Shown: piece after piece, positions 30,104-48,477 of the stretch
Layout: the number at the start of each line of letters is the position of its first letter
Numbering within the stretch: the stretch's first letter is position 1
Assembly: GCA_030429205.1 (NCBI GenBank)
Contig: JAUICZ010000001.1
Coordinates: 310,001-374,000, forward strand
Origin: Bacteroidia bacterium
GTDB taxonomy: Bacteria; Bacteroidota; Bacteroidia; Chitinophagales; Chitinophagaceae
Direction: 5' to 3'
DNA length: 64,000 bases
Notes under the pieces: model-generated
Databases searched by the model: none
What the model saw: the letters and a program-made list of their open reading frames with translations, nothing else
What the model was told of the DNA's origin: nothing
Made by a program: the position numbers and the translations under genes

Positions 30104-30130
30104 GCTTAAAATAACTTTAAGCTTACTGTA
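30096..30130. repeat. 15-bp perfect inverted repeat joining two convergent gene ends
   Basis: TACAGTAAGCTTAAA (30096-30110) and TTTAAGCTTACTGTA (30116-30130) surround the 5-nt loop ATAAC. The repeat includes the TAA of the forward gene (30101-30103) and the last codons and stop of the reverse gene (30106-30108). There is no U-run, so it is terminator-like but not a classic intrinsic terminator. Confidence 0.8.
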
Positions 30131-31263
30131 AGGCCCGGCCACACGTAGTTGTCTTGCCCTTTACGTACCAGTAAAAATATTTCAGGCGTGATTCTCACTG
30201 AAGGTGAAAGGCTGTAGTTCCAAAATATTTTATACCCTTCGTGCGGCTCTAAAGAGGGGTGATCTGTCAACATATAGCTAAAACCCAATGAGGTTTCATA
30301 TACAGGTATCCAAGTGTTCTTTCTATCAATGAACGTACCCAGTTCTGCATTAATAAATGCCAGGCTATAGTAGTTATATACAGAAGCAGAAATTCTTTCG
30401 AACTGTGGCATAGTGGATATTGAAACTCTTACATAGTCGTGCTTACCGGGAGCTGTCCTCCATTTATATGAACCTCCAACTTCTAGAAATGGCGATAAAT
30501 TATTTCTAAATACAGATGCACCAATATAATAGGTTACATCAAACCCTTTAAGAATCCCTCCTCTGTTTTTTACACTTAGCTTTTCTTTACCATCTATAGC
30601 TGCAGCAGTATAGTTGATAGCAATACTATGATACCATGTATCTTCCCTGTTCCATTTACTGCGTTTTTGTTCCACTGCTTTATCCAGCGCAGAGGCTACT
30701 TCTTCTACCAGTTGCTCATTTTTTGAAATACTGCTGATGTCTTCTATATCCTTCAATACAAATGTGTACAACAGCAATGCTTTTTCCACCTGCCCTTCTT
30801 GATCTTTTTGCACCTCATAGGTTTTTAAAATACGTATAGTATCCATACCCAATTTTAGTGGGGCTTGTTGGTCGTAATTAATAATTAGCATATCTGTGCC
30901 ATCATTATGTTCTCTTATTCTTACCGACAATGGCCTGTTTTTTATCGGAGCATGAATATCTATTCTTTTAGACGTGAGTGTACTTTTAAATGAATCGGAG
31001 ACTTTCGCTACGGTACTACCTGCAATATCAAAAATTGTGTTCAGTGCTTCTTTTTCAGGCCAATAGCTCATCTTGTAAAAGTCAACCAGCAAGAAGTTAT
31101 CATCAGGTAAGTCCACTTTTATATGATGGTTATGATATGCTTTATTCAGCTCGAACAATTCTCTTTTCAACTGTTCTTCATTCTTTACAGGGCGCCTGTT
31201 TTGCGCTACAGAATTAGCACTGAAAATCAATAAGATTGCGAGTATATATAATAGCTTTTGCAT
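30106..31263 (-). CDS. Exported protein, third gene of the first ECF sigma operon
   Basis: 385-residue protein with a signal peptide (ending NSVAQ at about residue 21). The middle is helical and charged (VEEVASALDKAVEQKRSKW). The C-terminal third alternates aromatic and polar residues as in outer-membrane strands: VTYYIGASVFRNNLSPFLEV, INAELGTFIDRKNTWIPVY, ending VWPGLTVSLKLF, whose terminal Phe is typical of barrel proteins. No named family was recognised. It starts 2 bp after the anti-sigma-like gene and ends in the 15-bp inverted repeat. The gene order sigma, membrane protein, outer-membrane protein is repeated at 48.0-50.1 kb. Confidence 0.72.
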   Translation of the reverse strand: MQKLLYILAILLIFSANSVAQNRRPVKNEEQLKRELFELNKAYHNHHIKVDLPDDNFLLVDFYKMSYWPEKEALNTIFDIAGSTVAKVSDSFKSTLTSKRIDIHAPIKNRPLSVRIREHNDGTDMLIINYDQQAPLKLGMDTIRILKTYEVQKDQEGQVEKALLLYTFVLKDIEDISSISKNEQLVEEVASALDKAVEQKRSKWNREDTWYHSIAINYTAAAIDGKEKLSVKNRGGILKGFDVTYYIGASVFRNNLSPFLEVGGSYKWRTAPGKHDYVRVSISTMPQFERISASVYNYYSLAFINAELGTFIDRKNTWIPVYETSLGFSYMLTDHPSLEPHEGYKIFWNYSLSPSVRITPEIFLLVRKGQDNYVWPGLTVSLKLF

Positions 31264-31265
31264 GA

Positions 31266-31943
31266 TTACTTAGATTTTTTAAACCCGTGAAAAATAGATG
31301 ATGCATGCTGGTTGCTTGCAGGCAATCGCTCTGCGGATATTTGCAATGCAAACCCAGACCTCACTTTCGCAGAAGGGTCACTTTGATACAAGGCCGTATT
31401 ACGATCTTCATTCTCAATATCCAGCAAGTGCACAGGCTTCACTTTCTTTACAGGAGCTTTTGCAATTACAGTTTTTTCTTCAGTCAGGGTCTCTGTCACT
31501 ATAGCAGGCGCCTGATCTTTCTTCTTAACAGGTTGCGCTACTTCTTTTTGTTGCGCCACTACTACCTGCTGTTTTTGTACCGGCTGAAGCGGAGCTGCAA
31601 CAGGTTGCACTACAGGCACTTCTACTTCTTTAGTAACATACACCGTATCCGTTTTTACAATAACTTGTGGTGCTACAGGTTTATTTGCTATTGTTACTTG
31701 TTGTTCTGCTTGTTTATCATCATTATTAAGAATTGTTGTTATAGCCACACTACCTATTAAAACGCCGGCAACTACTGCTGCTGCATGTGTCCACCATACA
31801 GGCACAACTCGTCTTTTCTTTTTGGCAGGAAGTTTTTCAGACAACTCATCCCAGGCTTGGTCTTTATCAAAACCAGGCAGCACATCATGCAAACTTGCAT
31901 TCTCCATTTTATCATTCATCATCTTTTCAAAATCTGTACCCAT
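31266..31943 (-). CDS. Single-pass membrane protein, putative anti-sigma factor
   Basis: 225-residue protein with a cytoplasmic N-terminus (MGTDFEKMMNDKMENASLHD) ending at KKKRRV. One membrane helix follows (about 51-71, WTHAAAVVAGVLIGSVAITT). The periplasmic tail is rich in V, P, Q and K: EVEVPVVQPVAAPLQPVQKQ and similar. Topology and position directly after an ECF sigma gene (2 bp) fit an anti-sigma factor, although no zinc-binding ASD motif (HxxxCxxC) is present. The tail is low-complexity and could span the periplasm to the outer-membrane protein encoded next. The anti-sigma role is inference. Confidence 0.7.
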   Translation of the reverse strand: MGTDFEKMMNDKMENASLHDVLPGFDKDQAWDELSEKLPAKKKRRVVPVWWTHAAAVVAGVLIGSVAITTILNNDDKQAEQQVTIANKPVAPQVIVKTDTVYVTKEVEVPVVQPVAAPLQPVQKQQVVVAQQKEVAQPVKKKDQAPAIVTETLTEEKTVIAKAPVKKVKPVHLLDIENEDRNTALYQSDPSAKVRSGFALQISAERLPASNQHASSIFHGFKKSK

Positions 31944-31945
31944 GA

Positions 31946-32512
31946 TCAGTTGTTTTTACTGTGATCTAAAATTGTTTTCTGTAACAAGGCCTTTGCTTTA
32001 TGTAACTGAGATTTAGAAGTATTATCTGATATATTCATCAAGACTCCAATTTCCTTATGCGTCATGCCTTCAAAAGTGTACAGGTTAAATATTGTCCTGT
32101 ACCCGTCAGGCAAACTATGTATCAAAGCCATCAGTTCTTTCACACTCATCCTGCCTATTGCATCATTATCCAGAGCCACATCGCTTGCATAATCCAGTTC
32201 GTTTGCTCCTGCCAGTATGTTATCTTTCTTTCTTAAGAACATCAGGCATTGGTTGATCATTATTTTCTTCATCCAAGCTTTCAAACTTCCATCTCCTCTG
32301 TATTCAAACTTTTGCAAATTCTTAAAACAGTTACAAAACCCGTCCATCATTACTTCTCTGGCATCTTCTGCATTGGGGATGTACCTAAGGCACGTCAGCA
32401 TCATAAAATCGATATATTTATCGTAGAGCTGCCTTTGTGCAATACGTTCCCCGTCAATGCAAGATGCAATGAGTTCTTGCTCGTTTATTGTATGTGTAGT
32501 GCGTAGTGTCAA
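31946..32512 (-). CDS. ECF RNA polymerase sigma factor
   Basis: 188-residue sigma-70 family ECF factor. Region 2 contains ERIAQRQLYDKYIDFMML, PNAEDAREVMMDGFCNCFKN and WMKKIMINQCLMFLRKK. Region 4 contains IHSLPDGYRTIFNLYTFEGM, followed by THKEIGVLMNISDNTSKSQL with its helix-turn-helix. The start codon appears to be TTG at 32510-32512, since the next ATG would delete part of region 2. A TATATTAG box close upstream may give a very short leader. Further upstream (32563-32612) is an ECF-type promoter element that is also found in front of the T9SS gene. It is first of three co-directional genes separated by 2-bp gaps. Confidence 0.92.
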   Translation of the reverse strand: MTLRTTHTINEQELIASCIDGERIAQRQLYDKYIDFMMLTCLRYIPNAEDAREVMMDGFCNCFKNLQKFEYRGDGSLKAWMKKIMINQCLMFLRKKDNILAGANELDYASDVALDNDAIGRMSVKELMALIHSLPDGYRTIFNLYTFEGMTHKEIGVLMNISDNTSKSQLHKAKALLQKTILDHSKNN

Positions 32513-32562: not shown

Positions 32563-32612
32563 ATAAATGCAGGATATGCAAAAAGGGTTGCCCGACTCAA
32601 AATATTTTTTTG
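32563..32612 (-). promoter_or_regulatory. Candidate autoregulated ECF promoter element, copy 1
   Basis: On the minus strand an AT-rich block is followed by CGGGCAACCC (32594-32585), an 11-nt spacer and CCTGCATTTAT (32573-32563). In ECF terms this is GCAAC, 16 nt, GCATTTAT. The same 50 bases recur ungapped at 33685-33734 with about 40 identities. It lies upstream of the ECF sigma gene. Confidence 0.65.
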
Positions 32613-32630
32613 CAGGACAACCTCGCACTA

Positions 32631-33611
32631 CTACATTTTGTAAAACCTAAACGCTTTTGTCATGCCGCCAATATTTACTTGCAGCATATAAAGACCTGGT
32701 TGTAAATCACTTACATTAATAGCTTTGCTTTTGCCATTTATATCACCTTTCTTACCTATCAATGCTCCGTTCATACTAACAATGCGATATACTCCTTTAG
32801 CTGGTTGCCCCAAATTAATATTCAGCGTAGCTTGAGTTTGTGTTGGATACACTACAACATCGCTCATAACCTCATATTCACTTACGGATAAGGTTAAGTT
32901 ATTAAACACATAAACGGTACTGTCTGCAGGGTAGCTGTCTAAAACTCCTCCAAAGTAGCCAAAGCTGATGCTATCTATTACAGGGTTGGCAGCCGCTCCT
33001 CTTAAAGAGTATATAATACCGGTAGACTCTTGATAGTTAAATTCGCGCGCATAACCTATTAAAGGGCCATTACCAAAGTAGAAATAATCCGTAGGATGAG
33101 TTATGCGAGAGGAACCGAAATGGATCTCGAATTTGCTATCTGCCTCATATAGCCAGAATTGCACATTAATATAGTCATTTAGCGTACCATAGAGTGACAG
33201 CTCATCATAAAAACCTGCATTAGTTATCTCAATCTTGCATATTCTGTTACCCGGTGCTCCCTCCACTTTATAGCTAACAGGGGATAACGATGTATTACTA
33301 TCTGCACCACGATCAATTAAGTCTATACCAAGACAAACAATACCATTTATGACCTCTTCTGTAGTATCATGAGATATTAGTGATTCTGGCTGCAAGTAAA
33401 AAACATCATTTTCAATGCCGTTCATCGTGTATTTAAAACCCAATGGTATTTTATATACAGCATCATCCCAAACAGTACCATTATTCAAACTAATAGCATT
33501 TTCAAGAGGCCTATATACATCTGTTTTAGTAGACACTGTATAGGGTGCCTGCGCTGTAGCATTTGTTGTTACAATTAGTATCAGAGCGAGTAACGTGAGT
33601 ATATTTTTCAT
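32631..33611 (-). CDS. Secreted protein with type IX secretion sorting domain
   Basis: 326-residue exported protein. A Sec signal peptide (MKNILTLLALILIVTTNATAQ) is followed by a beta-rich domain of about 220 residues with NNGTVWDDAVYKIPLGFKYT and WLYEADSKFEIHFGSSRI. The C-terminal 75 residues form a T9SS type A sorting domain: VVYPTQTQATLNINLG, YRIVSMNGALIG, LQPGLYMLQVNIGG, AFRFYKM. The cargo would be exported across the outer membrane and released or anchored. The catalytic nature of the domain is not evident. The ECF-type element at 33685-33734 lies about 75 nt upstream, so its expression is probably tied to the sigma factor encoded downstream. Confidence 0.85.
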   Translation of the reverse strand: MKNILTLLALILIVTTNATAQAPYTVSTKTDVYRPLENAISLNNGTVWDDAVYKIPLGFKYTMNGIENDVFYLQPESLISHDTTEEVINGIVCLGIDLIDRGADSNTSLSPVSYKVEGAPGNRICKIEITNAGFYDELSLYGTLNDYINVQFWLYEADSKFEIHFGSSRITHPTDYFYFGNGPLIGYAREFNYQESTGIIYSLRGAAANPVIDSISFGYFGGVLDSYPADSTVYVFNNLTLSVSEYEVMSDVVVYPTQTQATLNINLGQPAKGVYRIVSMNGALIGKKGDINGKSKAINVSDLQPGLYMLQVNIGGMTKAFRFYKM

Positions 33612-33684
33612 TTTTAACTGATTTTAGTAGTGTTAGATATTTCTGCTTGCGCGCTTTTAGCAGTTTTCCTGATTGCTTTATTTA

Positions 33685-33734
33685 ATAAATGCAGGTAGAA
33701 GAAAAAGGGTTGCCCGGTTTCAAATATTTTTTTG
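33685..33734 (-). promoter_or_regulatory. Candidate ECF promoter element, copy 2
   Basis: On the minus strand the element has CGGGCAACCC (33716-33707), an 11-nt spacer and CCTGCATTTAT (33695-33685). It aligns without gaps to copy 1 at 32563-32612: 11/11 in the -10 block, 10/10 in the -35 block and about 14/18 in the upstream AT block. It sits upstream of the T9SS cargo gene. Confidence 0.65.
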
Positions 33735-33738
33735 AATT

Positions 33739-33772
33739 GCAAAAGCCCCTGTTTTATAGCAGGGGCTTTTGC
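33739..33772 (-). terminator. Terminator of the 34-36 kb TonB receptor gene
   Basis: GCAAAAGCCCCTG (33739-33751) and CAGGGGCTTTTGC (33760-33772) form a perfect 13-bp stem around an 8-nt loop, 17 nt after the receptor stop. The T-run is short (four). Confidence 0.8.
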
Positions 33773-33788
33773 ATGTATGTTTAGTCAA

Positions 33789-36230
33789 TTAAAATGCTAT
33801 AATAAATCCGATTGTAGGTATGATAACGGGATCACTTTCTTTTATAACATATGGTATTGCATTACTTCCGTCAGAGCGTACAGGTTGGCCATCGGTAGTA
33901 GCAAAAGCTGAGTTATCATCCGTTCTCTGAAAAGTGTATTGCGGGTACTGAGGTTGTACACCACCGTATACATTTGTTACATCCAAATACAGGTCTAATG
34001 CCCAATTTTTAAAATTCCATTTTTTATCTAACCTTATGTCTAATGCATGGAATGCACCCAAACGCAGATCATTAAACCTGTTGTAGTTGAGCGTACCTAC
34101 TCCTGTCGACAAATAATTTTGTTGAGATGCAGCATCGTCAAACGGTGTATACGGGGCACCACCTTGATAACGAAACTTAACGCCTAGTTCAATATTGCGT
34201 TTGAACTTATATCCTCCAATCAGCGATAGTAAATGCCTGTTGTCCCAAGATGCGGGTTCGTATATGCCATTGGCGTTTGTAAACTCACTAATAAAATAGG
34301 TATATGATAGAATGGCAAAAAAGTTCTTTGTCAGTTTACGTTGAAACTGAAACTCAACACCATAGCTTCTACCCTGCCCTGTAGACGATACCGGCTCATT
34401 CCCTAAAACGTTAAAGTTGCCTCCTTTGTTAGCCAGTGATATGCTGTCAATCAGTGAGACTGGATAGTTATCATATACTTTATAAAAACCTTCGAGCGTA
34501 AAGCGAATATCACGTTTAGGCAAAAATTCAAAACCTACTACGATGTGATCGCTCTGTATGTATTTACTATTCTTACTAACATACACCCCTCCACTTTGAA
34601 ACCCTAAAATGGTGTAAGGCGGAATTTTGTAATAGCGAGCTACAGAAGTATTAAACTTCAGATTCTCGACCAGCAATAACGAAGTAGCCAGGCGTGGCGA
34701 TATGGTTTCGCCTAAATTATTTCCGCCTGTAGTAAACGTATTACCATCTGTACGGAGACCTAATGAAACGCTTAGCCTTTCTTTAAAAAGCTTTGTAGCG
34801 GCCTGCATAAAAGCTCCATACCTATAAAAGTTAATATCAGATGCTCCTTGTACAATAACAGAAGGTTGAACAAGCAGCCCGTTTTGATCTCTTATCTCTG
34901 AACGAACACGAGTATAATAGTCATTAGTATACTCATCGTACTGTGCCATTACACCAACACTGAAGTTCCATAAGCCATAATACTTATTCAGCTCAAACCT
35001 TGTTTTAGTCTCACTTTCCTGAGAACGTATCTTTAATATTCGCTCTGTCTCTTTAGGATTTTGGTTGTCTTCGAACTGGTCCAGCTCGTTATTCAACATG
35101 TTTCTGCTGAATGTCCAGTTCCAAAAACCATTTTTGACCAGTTTCTTCAAACCATACCCGTTGGTATAATTCCACTGGTTGATGGTAGGGTTACTTTTAA
35201 TGGTATATATATTTTCCGGGGTAAGTTCATCAGGCGTAATAAAACTGAAGTTATCTATAGCGCCTATACCCAACGTATAAAAGGTGAGCTTTTTATTGAT
35301 CTTATAGTCTATCTTATATTGAAAATCCCAATAAGATGGTTGAATTGGTATTTGCAATGCCTTAAACAGCAACTGTAAATAAGACCTTCTGCCAGATGCC
35401 ATAAATGTCACCTTATCTTTCTTAATAGGTCCATCAACAGTATACGCTAGCTCTGTCGCGCTTAATCTTACGTTATGCTGCACCTTATCCGGGTTGGCGC
35501 TACGTTGCTTTAGTTGCAACACGCCTGAAAGCGGATTATCGTACTTAGCAGAAAAAGCGGAAGTATATAAATTCACCTCATTAATGAATGAGATATTTAC
35601 GATACCTGTTGGACCTCCGGCACTACCCTGTGTAGCAAAATGGTTAATCACCGGCACCTCTATACCGTCCAGATAATATACATTTTCATTAGGTGCTCCA
35701 CCACGGATGACCAAGTCGTTTCTATATCCACCAACAGAGCCCGAGGTGCCTCCCACACCGGGGAATGCCTGAATAACACGAGAAACATCGAAATTTCCGC
35801 CGGGGTTACTCTTTATCTCCTGCGCGGACATGGTTTGAATAGATAAAGGTGTTTCAGCGTTTTTTTGGAATGGGTTACTGCGTACTACTGCTGTTGAAAG
35901 TTCTATACTATTTTTCTCCAGTTCTATATCCAATACTTCAGCATTACCTGTAGTCACTACAACATTGTATAATGTAATTTCTTTGTAATCGATAGATTTT
36001 ACTCTGATGTTGTATGTTTTGGGTGGTACATTCTCAATCCTGAAATTCCCGTCTATATCACTCACTGTACCCATGTCTGTATCAATTAACGAAATACTGA
36101 CACTGATTACAGGTTCTTGCGTTTTCTTATCTTTTACAGTACCGGTAATAGTGCCTCTGGGACCAAGTTTTTGCCCGTATACAATACCATTTAGCAGTAC
36201 CAATGATATCAAAACAGCTAACTTCTTCAT
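33789..36230 (-). CDS. TonB-dependent outer-membrane receptor with regulatory-like domain
   Basis: 813-residue receptor. A signal peptide (MKKLAVLISLVLLNGIVYGQ) is followed by a carboxypeptidase-regulatory-like domain (GTITGTVKDKKTQEPVISVS, TYNIRVKSIDYKEITLYNVV). The plug carries SGSVGGYRNDLVIRGGAPNE and VYYLDGIEVPVINHF. The barrel runs to the C-terminus, which ends in Phe (IIPTIGFIIAF). It lacks a SusD neighbour and is not SusC-sized. It is a single-gene unit with its own terminator. The substrate is unknown; the receptor is close to the ECF/T9SS genes, but no ECF-type element was seen in front of it. Confidence 0.92.
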   Translation of the reverse strand: MKKLAVLISLVLLNGIVYGQKLGPRGTITGTVKDKKTQEPVISVSISLIDTDMGTVSDIDGNFRIENVPPKTYNIRVKSIDYKEITLYNVVVTTGNAEVLDIELEKNSIELSTAVVRSNPFQKNAETPLSIQTMSAQEIKSNPGGNFDVSRVIQAFPGVGGTSGSVGGYRNDLVIRGGAPNENVYYLDGIEVPVINHFATQGSAGGPTGIVNISFINEVNLYTSAFSAKYDNPLSGVLQLKQRSANPDKVQHNVRLSATELAYTVDGPIKKDKVTFMASGRRSYLQLLFKALQIPIQPSYWDFQYKIDYKINKKLTFYTLGIGAIDNFSFITPDELTPENIYTIKSNPTINQWNYTNGYGLKKLVKNGFWNWTFSRNMLNNELDQFEDNQNPKETERILKIRSQESETKTRFELNKYYGLWNFSVGVMAQYDEYTNDYYTRVRSEIRDQNGLLVQPSVIVQGASDINFYRYGAFMQAATKLFKERLSVSLGLRTDGNTFTTGGNNLGETISPRLATSLLLVENLKFNTSVARYYKIPPYTILGFQSGGVYVSKNSKYIQSDHIVVGFEFLPKRDIRFTLEGFYKVYDNYPVSLIDSISLANKGGNFNVLGNEPVSSTGQGRSYGVEFQFQRKLTKNFFAILSYTYFISEFTNANGIYEPASWDNRHLLSLIGGYKFKRNIELGVKFRYQGGAPYTPFDDAASQQNYLSTGVGTLNYNRFNDLRLGAFHALDIRLDKKWNFKNWALDLYLDVTNVYGGVQPQYPQYTFQRTDDNSAFATTDGQPVRSDGSNAIPYVIKESDPVIIPTIGFIIAF

Positions 36231-47994: not shown

Positions 47995-48477
47995 ATGGAG
48001 CTAAACGACTACAACACTTGCGTACAAGAGTGGGCTGATGCACTTTTTCGCTTTGCCTGTAAATCTACAGGTAATGAGGAGGACGCAAGGGATGTAGTTC
48101 AGAACAGCTTCGCAGTTCTTTGGCAAAAAAGAGAGAATGTAGTACCGGCAAAAGCAAAGGCATTTTTGTTTCAGGTAGCGTATAACCAGTCTATAGACTT
48201 ATACCGTAAACAAAGCAGGGTGCATTACACGGAAAGTCAACCCGACACCGGATATACTCAATCTGGAGAAAGCGACCTTAAGAAAGTACTCGACAGGGCA
48301 CTATCTAAGCTGGACGAACAATCTAGAGCGTTGGTATTACTAAAAGACTATGAAGGGTATAAGTACGATGAGATAGCACAAATAACAGATTTATCGCCTG
48401 CGCAGGTAAAAGTATATCTGCATCGTGCCCGGAAAACGTTGAAGAACTATTTAGTAAGTGTAGAAAACATTATTTAA
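47995..48477 (+). CDS. ECF RNA polymerase sigma factor, second copy
   Basis: 160-residue ECF sigma factor. Region 2: WADALFRFACKSTGNEEDAR, DVVQNSFAVLWQKRENV, AFLFQVAYNQSIDLYRKQSR. Region 4: ALSKLDEQSRALVLLKDYEG, YKYDEIAQITDLSPAQVKVY, LHRARKTLKNYL. It is only distantly similar to the factor at 31.9 kb. A promoter-like GTAAC-16-CGATATAC lies immediately upstream, as expected for autoregulation. It is followed after 4 bp by a single-pass membrane protein and then by an outer-membrane protein. Confidence 0.92.
   Translation: MELNDYNTCVQEWADALFRFACKSTGNEEDARDVVQNSFAVLWQKRENVVPAKAKAFLFQVAYNQSIDLYRKQSRVHYTESQPDTGYTQSGESDLKKVLDRALSKLDEQSRALVLLKDYEGYKYDEIAQITDLSPAQVKVYLHRARKTLKNYLVSVENII

Follow-up and report, generated by a model that had tools for sequence, protein, structure and literature searches.

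The locus and its duplicated element

The window, that is, the whole stretch of 64,000 nucleotides that was analysed, carries an ECF sigma factor gene on its minus strand. Read in that direction, a TonB-dependent receptor gene is followed by a hairpin, a putative promoter (promoter 2), a gene for a secreted cargo protein, another putative promoter (promoter 1), the sigma gene and two further genes encoding proteins of 225 and 385 aa:

33789..36230, minus strand: upstream TonB-dependent receptor gene; CarbopepD_reg and Plug domains above cut-off
33738..33773, no strand assigned: strong hairpin of 16 pairs with a loop of 4 nt, separating promoter 2 from the TonB-receptor gene
33685..33734, minus strand: putative promoter 2 (cargo gene), 44.7 bits with a model built without the window copies; A/T block about 33722-33733, GGCAACC 33708-33714, TGCATTTAT 33685-33693
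32631..33611, minus strand: secreted cargo gene, 326 aa, with a T9SS type A sorting domain at residues 254-325
32563..32612, minus strand: putative promoter 1 (sigma operon), 45.8 bits with the same model; A/T block 32599-32611, GGCAACC 32586-32592, TGCATTTAT 32563-32571
31946..32512, minus strand: ECF sigma factor gene, 188 aa with an assumed TTG start; Pfam Sigma70_r2 and r4_2
31266..31943, minus strand: anti-sigma-like gene, 225 aa, with one hydrophobic segment from about residue 45 and an N-terminal DKDQAW motif
30106..31263, minus strand: third cassette gene, 385 aa, with a signal-peptide-like start

The sigma factor comprises sigma-70 regions 2 and 4 only, as indicated by matches to PF04542, PF08281 and TIGR02937 above their cut-offs, and its PDB relatives are SigW, SigH and sigma-E. 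The sigma gene and the two genes behind it are separated by gaps of 2 nt and therefore probably constitute one operon. The 225-aa protein, like the first downstream protein at related loci, is termed anti-sigma-like on account of its position and topology; it matches no Pfam family up to E 0.1 and no NCBIfam family. The 385-aa protein is probably exported, and its sole NCBIfam match has the appearance of chance (17.5 bits against a cut-off of 468). The sorting domain of the cargo protein is recognized by both TIGR04183 (33.9 bits, cut-off 23) and PF18962 (34 bits, cut-off 27), and the signal peptide by eye only. Predicted structures of the cargo and 385-aa proteins, with mean pLDDT values of 43.6 and 35.5, were of too low a quality to serve in a search by fold. 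The hairpin is near-palindromic and was listed on the plus strand by a terminator scan.

Ahead of the sigma gene and of the cargo gene stand two copies of one 50-bp element. A first-pass annotation had described them as a duplicated promoter of the ECF type with a 16-nt spacing, and its coordinates, the extent of the match and the spacing are all correct. Aligned without gaps, 32563-32612 and 33685-33734 are identical at exactly 40 of 50 positions, and the gap between GCAACC and CATTTAT is 16 nt in both copies. The agreement is concentrated at the motif positions: the two variable spacers are identical at just 6 of 16 positions, and outside the 50-bp segments hardly any similarity is detectable. 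The end of the -10 box is 51 nt away from the assumed sigma start (TTG, 32512) and 74 nt away from the cargo ATG (33611). When the best same-strand match of 50-mers was taken at every window offset, one further offset besides that of the promoter pair reached 38 or more identities. The second ungapped 40/50 self-match of the window, 47544/47658, is located in the repetitive N-terminal region, rich in Arg and Ser, of a 372-aa coding frame, which looks pseudouridine synthase-like by eye.

The element is rare. Allowing up to three mismatches, CGGGCAACCC-N11-CCTGCATTTAT matches twice in the window and not once in 100 dinucleotide shuffles. The form lacking the first C, GGGCAACCC-N11-CCTGCATTTAT, was searched with the same tolerance over the genome (12 contigs, 3,641,557 bases, or 3.64 Mb) and was recovered at the two promoter copies and nowhere else; the reversed pattern gave no match genome-wide. 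A looser pattern, again with up to three mismatches, yielded 14 sites, two without mismatch, one with two and 11 with three, and the 12 sites other than the window copies score at most 14.9 bits on the promoter model, against 45.8 and 44.7. The third genome site (C6:42290, 14.9 bits) falls within a 430-aa open frame and was rejected. Scanning the window itself with the model placed the third-best site at 9.2 bits. The two elements are very probably ECF promoters.

Conservation alongside the sigma gene

In a sample of 294 genomes from the family (Chitinophagaceae), relatives of the sigma factor were sought with a profile made from nine sigma proteins, and 80 neighbourhoods were taken, best profile scores first, the selection being made by protein score alone. 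One of them (L215) was left out, as its sigma frame is broken by a stop; the remaining 79 and the window locus make up 80 loci. A cut at a profile score of 204 bits, chosen after the scores had been seen, divides these into 67 clade loci, which come from 57 of the 294 sampled genomes, and 13 weaker ones.

Of the 67 clade loci, 56 have the core CAACC-N16-CAT in the 250 nt ahead of the sigma gene, compared with a mean of 0.28 and a maximum of 3 in 200 shuffles; 2 of the 13 weaker loci also have it (58/80 when no cut is applied). Variants of the pattern give similar counts among the clade loci: 58/67 for CAAC-N16-GCAT and 52/67 for the strict form [GTA][GAC]CAACC-N15-[GA]CAT[TA][TCA]. Spacing and placement are equally characteristic: other spacings from 8 to 26 between CAACC and CAT occur in 0–4 of the 67 loci, and the core was found in none of them on the reverse strand or in the gene body. 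A promoter model of 54 positions was built from 51 promoters, the window copies being excluded. With leave-one-out scoring, 63 of the 67 clade loci exceed 13 bits, a mark set after the scores had been seen and with each round dropping a single row, one row pair being 98% alike; 20 shuffles per locus peak at 5.3 bits. Apart from that pair, most of the 52 promoters are too divergent to count as near-copies, with a median pairwise identity of 43% over 90 nt.

The conserved unit is composed of three parts at fixed spacing: an A/T block, GGCAACC and GCATTTAT. In the logo of the 52 promoters the A/T block, AAAATTTTT-like, extends from -18 to -9 before the motif; it is followed by CAGGCAACC, by TT at the next-but-one positions and then by GCATTTAT. 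The A/T content is 92% at -16 to -9, as against 61% further upstream. The autoregulation proposed in the first-pass annotation gains from this conservation, a promoter of the sigma's own type being retained ahead of the sigma gene, and self-activation is well supported as an inference.

Four of the 67 clade loci (L199, L206, L208 and L218) are devoid of a good site; L199 and L208 may represent a spacing variant of 15 nt, one base shorter, with a GCATTTAG box discerned by eye. Among the weaker relatives 4 of 13 score above 20 bits, and therefore the -35 part at least is more widely shared. The upstream regions of two other ECF genes of the genome were checked. The next-best paralogue of the sigma (C4:1216505) has no site upstream, the best score being -6.2 bits. 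A second ECF sigma gene in the window (47995-48477, plus strand, 160 aa) has no copy of the promoter in its own upstream region, since no further window site rises above 9.2 bits. Loci such as L015, L016, L020, L023 and L025 hold what we take by eye to be a different ECF sigma group, directly behind an rdgB-like (Ham1-type) gene, and this group is without the promoter motif. The stop-interrupted sigma gene of the omitted neighbourhood (G131:C18:284871-285374) belongs to the group, and a promoter-like site with three mismatches is still found upstream of it.

The promoter usually stands ahead of a cassette made up of the sigma gene, a gene for a one-helix anti-sigma-like protein and a gene for a protein of about 380 aa that is probably exported. 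The order sigma, first downstream gene and gene of 340–430 aa is observed at 45 of the 67 loci, the window included. A first downstream frame was called at 64 of the 67 loci; a simple hydropathy count places a hydrophobic segment in 61 of these 64 proteins, and in 60 of the 61 the segment starts at residue 37–72. Loci with the promoter include L036, from a Bacteroidetes MAG, and L037, from a Chitinophagaceae MAG, the latter with the whole three-gene cassette. An alignment of 24 anti-sigma-like members displays an invariant Trp in the N-terminal part; searches with these 24 returned no known anti-sigma family and two single weak Pfam matches, and none of 45 aligned members of the roughly 380-aa family matched Pfam. 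Profile searches of the PDB brought up no convincing relative for either of the unnamed families (best E 0.55 and 0.012). The two partner genes, which bear no family name, are candidates for the sensor and the brake of the sigma factor.

Predicted second targets

The extended pattern, which includes the A/T block and allows up to three mismatches, was run over 57 genomes, namely 56 with a clade locus together with G131 (G299 was left out). It returned 73 matches, against 4 for the reversed pattern; 53 are directly upstream of a sigma gene of the group and 20 are elsewhere. As the pattern recovers 52 of the 67 known sigma promoters, the resulting target lists are incomplete. Seven second sites score at least 30 bits and stand ahead of a gene start:

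this genome: T9SS cargo gene, 44.7 bits
G117: trypsin-fold protease, 42.5 bits; its T9SS domain match is below the cut-off (20.4 against 27)
G124: peroxiredoxin, then a T9SS cargo gene, 36.8 bits
G113: DUF1573 protein, 35.9 bits
G004: DUF5686/carboxypeptidase-regulatory protein, 35.5 bits
G234: another DUF5686/carboxypeptidase-regulatory family protein, 33.0 bits
G153: small hydrophobic protein, 32.1 bits

The six sites outside this genome overlap open frames of 80–1004 aa on either strand, which were judged by eye to be spurious or to begin too far upstream. By eye, five of the seven targets look exported; they do not belong to one family, and no secretion-machine gene is present among the second targets examined. 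A weaker site in G124 (13.8 bits) lies ahead of an esterase with a T9SS domain. With second targets varying from one genome to the next, the group offers a compact example of a sigma factor gaining new ones.

A number of non-sigma matches were set aside. Those of G312, G172:C9, G094:C45, G076:C28 and G076:C7:39040 (32.3 bits) are inside open frames, and the match of G199 is near-identical to that of G312; G146, G278:C1:1498452, G113:C22, G203 and G218 have no site above 8 bits; G278:C1:4730851 (20.8 bits) and G269:C8 (16.1 bits) were excluded from the count. Two simpler patterns gave mostly background and were not used for targets: without the A/T block and with three mismatches, 843 matches against 346 reversed in the 57 genomes; as exact GCAACC-N16-CATTTAT, 32 against 17 in 59 relatives, the 32 including five known sites (four sigma promoters and promoter 2).

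In this genome the regulon looks very small, the cargo promoter being the only other full-strength site found. The small regulon with a T9SS cargo gene that had been proposed on first inspection is thus upheld as an inference, and with just two predicted promoters its function is directly testable. A general link to type IX secretion does not emerge: a cargo gene is among the predicted targets here, but in relatives such second targets are scarce and heterogeneous. The genome contains at least 150 T9SS sorting-domain matches (150 of 187 candidates scored), so that one cargo target says little for a T9SS-specific role, and an enrichment of T9SS proteins among the targets is at most suggestive. 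A same-strand gene upstream of the sigma was called at 33 of the 66 other clade loci; the identities are mixed and two of the 33 products have a T9SS sorting domain. At two of the 33 loci the same-strand gene directly upstream of the sigma is GldN, a gliding/T9SS part.

A putative self-activating circuit and known systems

In our judgement, the ECF sigma factor of 31946-32512 very probably uses both elements as promoters, driving its own operon and the cargo gene. The sigma would read a three-part site: GGCAACC would serve as the -35 and GCATTTAT as the -10, the distance from GCAACC to CAT being fixed at 16 nt, and an A/T block would lie about 9–18 nt further upstream. Promoter 1 would express the sigma factor, the anti-sigma-like membrane protein and the probably exported protein of about 380 aa, a positive feedback that the anti-sigma would restrain. 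Promoter 2 would serve the T9SS cargo gene; as the scan listed no terminator between the cargo gene and the sigma gene, its transcripts may also continue into the sigma operon.

Two other explanations bear on the repeat and on its reader. The repeat might have arisen when the cargo gene was recently inserted or duplicated in tandem, in which case the second copy would be a passenger devoid of regulatory meaning. The repeats do flank the cargo gene, and each copy resembles the other (40/50) more than it does any of 51 further sigma promoters (best values 36 and 37); moreover, in the 1.5 kb examined at the locus of G004, whose sigma is the nearest relative and sister in the tree (support 97/85), no cargo homologue is present. 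We regard this scenario as very unlikely: identity is confined to the motif positions, fading in the spacers and beyond the 50 bp, and a passenger is not expected to retain just those positions that are conserved in 51 other promoters. Elsewhere the motif is absent ahead of cargo homologues: of eight upstream regions, including four from the sister genomes G001 and G003, none scores above -10.8 bits, although one (L112) says little, with 111 of its 345 letters masked as N. A second cargo-like gene of this genome has no promoter site either (best -5.5 bits), and no close copy of the sigma is present in G001–G003. Because the spacers match so poorly, G004 has no nearby cargo homologue and cargo homologues elsewhere have no motif, the cargo promoter has the look of an element gained in this lineage and maintained by selection, and not of a recent repeat.

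The elements might also be genuine ECF promoters that are read by another ECF factor of the genome, or by several, the neighbouring sigma being merely one target. The window holds another ECF gene at 47995-48477, the genome has 17 first-look candidates, and the GCAACC-type -35 found upstream of some more distant ECF genes, with 4 of 13 above 20 bits, makes cross-recognition by another ECF factor possible. This reading is nevertheless unlikely: the motif accompanies this sigma group at 63 of 67 loci, and neither the paralogue C4:1216505 nor the second ECF gene of the window has it upstream. Recognition by the neighbouring sigma, and hence self-activation, is the reading that we prefer.

Autoregulated operons of an ECF sigma and its anti-sigma, of the sigma-E and SigW type, are a known kind; the promoter type and the cassette described here look like a new version of it. 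A description of this ECF group was not found in the open-licence literature, and a base-by-base promoter definition is now given. The likeness to sigma-E and SigW operons includes a sigma gene followed by a gene for a one-helix membrane protein, an AAC-containing -35, a fixed spacing and a promoter ahead of the sigma's own operon. The common ECF -10 is of the CGTC type, whereas the -10 here is GCATTTAT and the conserved unit also takes in the A/T block; in addition, no Pfam family is matched by either the anti-sigma candidate or the third gene. In FecI/FecR/FecA surface signalling an ECF factor, a membrane anti-sigma and an outer-membrane protein form one circuit. The first-pass annotation had invoked surface signalling, and a circuit of the Fec type is not borne out: the anti-sigma candidate has no FecR domain (Pfam up to E 0.1), no STN domain was found up to E 0.1 in the adjacent TonB receptor (33789-36230), and the third cassette gene, at about 380 aa, is too short for a TonB receptor. 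A link to surface signalling is a guess, the partners of the sigma here being two unnamed families.

Promoters termed SM6 in Flavobacterium psychrophilum are ascribed to ECF factors including one sigma/anti-sigma pair; they have a CGT box at -10 and cover several T9SS component genes (PMC9723704). The likeness lies in ECF-ascribed promoters with a sigma/anti-sigma pair and genes tied to T9SS, and the difference in the -10, which here is GCATTTAT and not a CGT box, and in the several T9SS component genes that SM6 covers. In Porphyromonas gingivalis the ECF factor SigP, together with PorXY and PorA, is tied to type IX secretion; it acts on secretion-machine genes, is bound by PorX and has the proposed motif C(T)AAA(G/C/T)A(T)A(C)T(A/G)A (PMC4800418, PMC7712824), and a figure legend has it raising its own gene (PMC7712824). 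Like the circuit predicted here, that of SigP comprises an ECF factor raising its own gene and a T9SS-type surface protein. Differences are apparent in the published SigP motif, which bears no resemblance by eye to the promoter described here, in the targets, no secretion-machine gene being among the second targets examined, and in the binding of SigP by PorX. A closed loop is conceivable, in which the sigma would raise the T9SS cargo along with its own operon, while the cargo at the surface would report back through the protein of about 380 aa and the one-helix anti-sigma and so control the sigma. We hold this to be unlikely; if true, the PorA-SigP idea would gain a new counterpart that is based on an anti-sigma and relies on two unnamed protein families accompanying the sigma in many related genomes.
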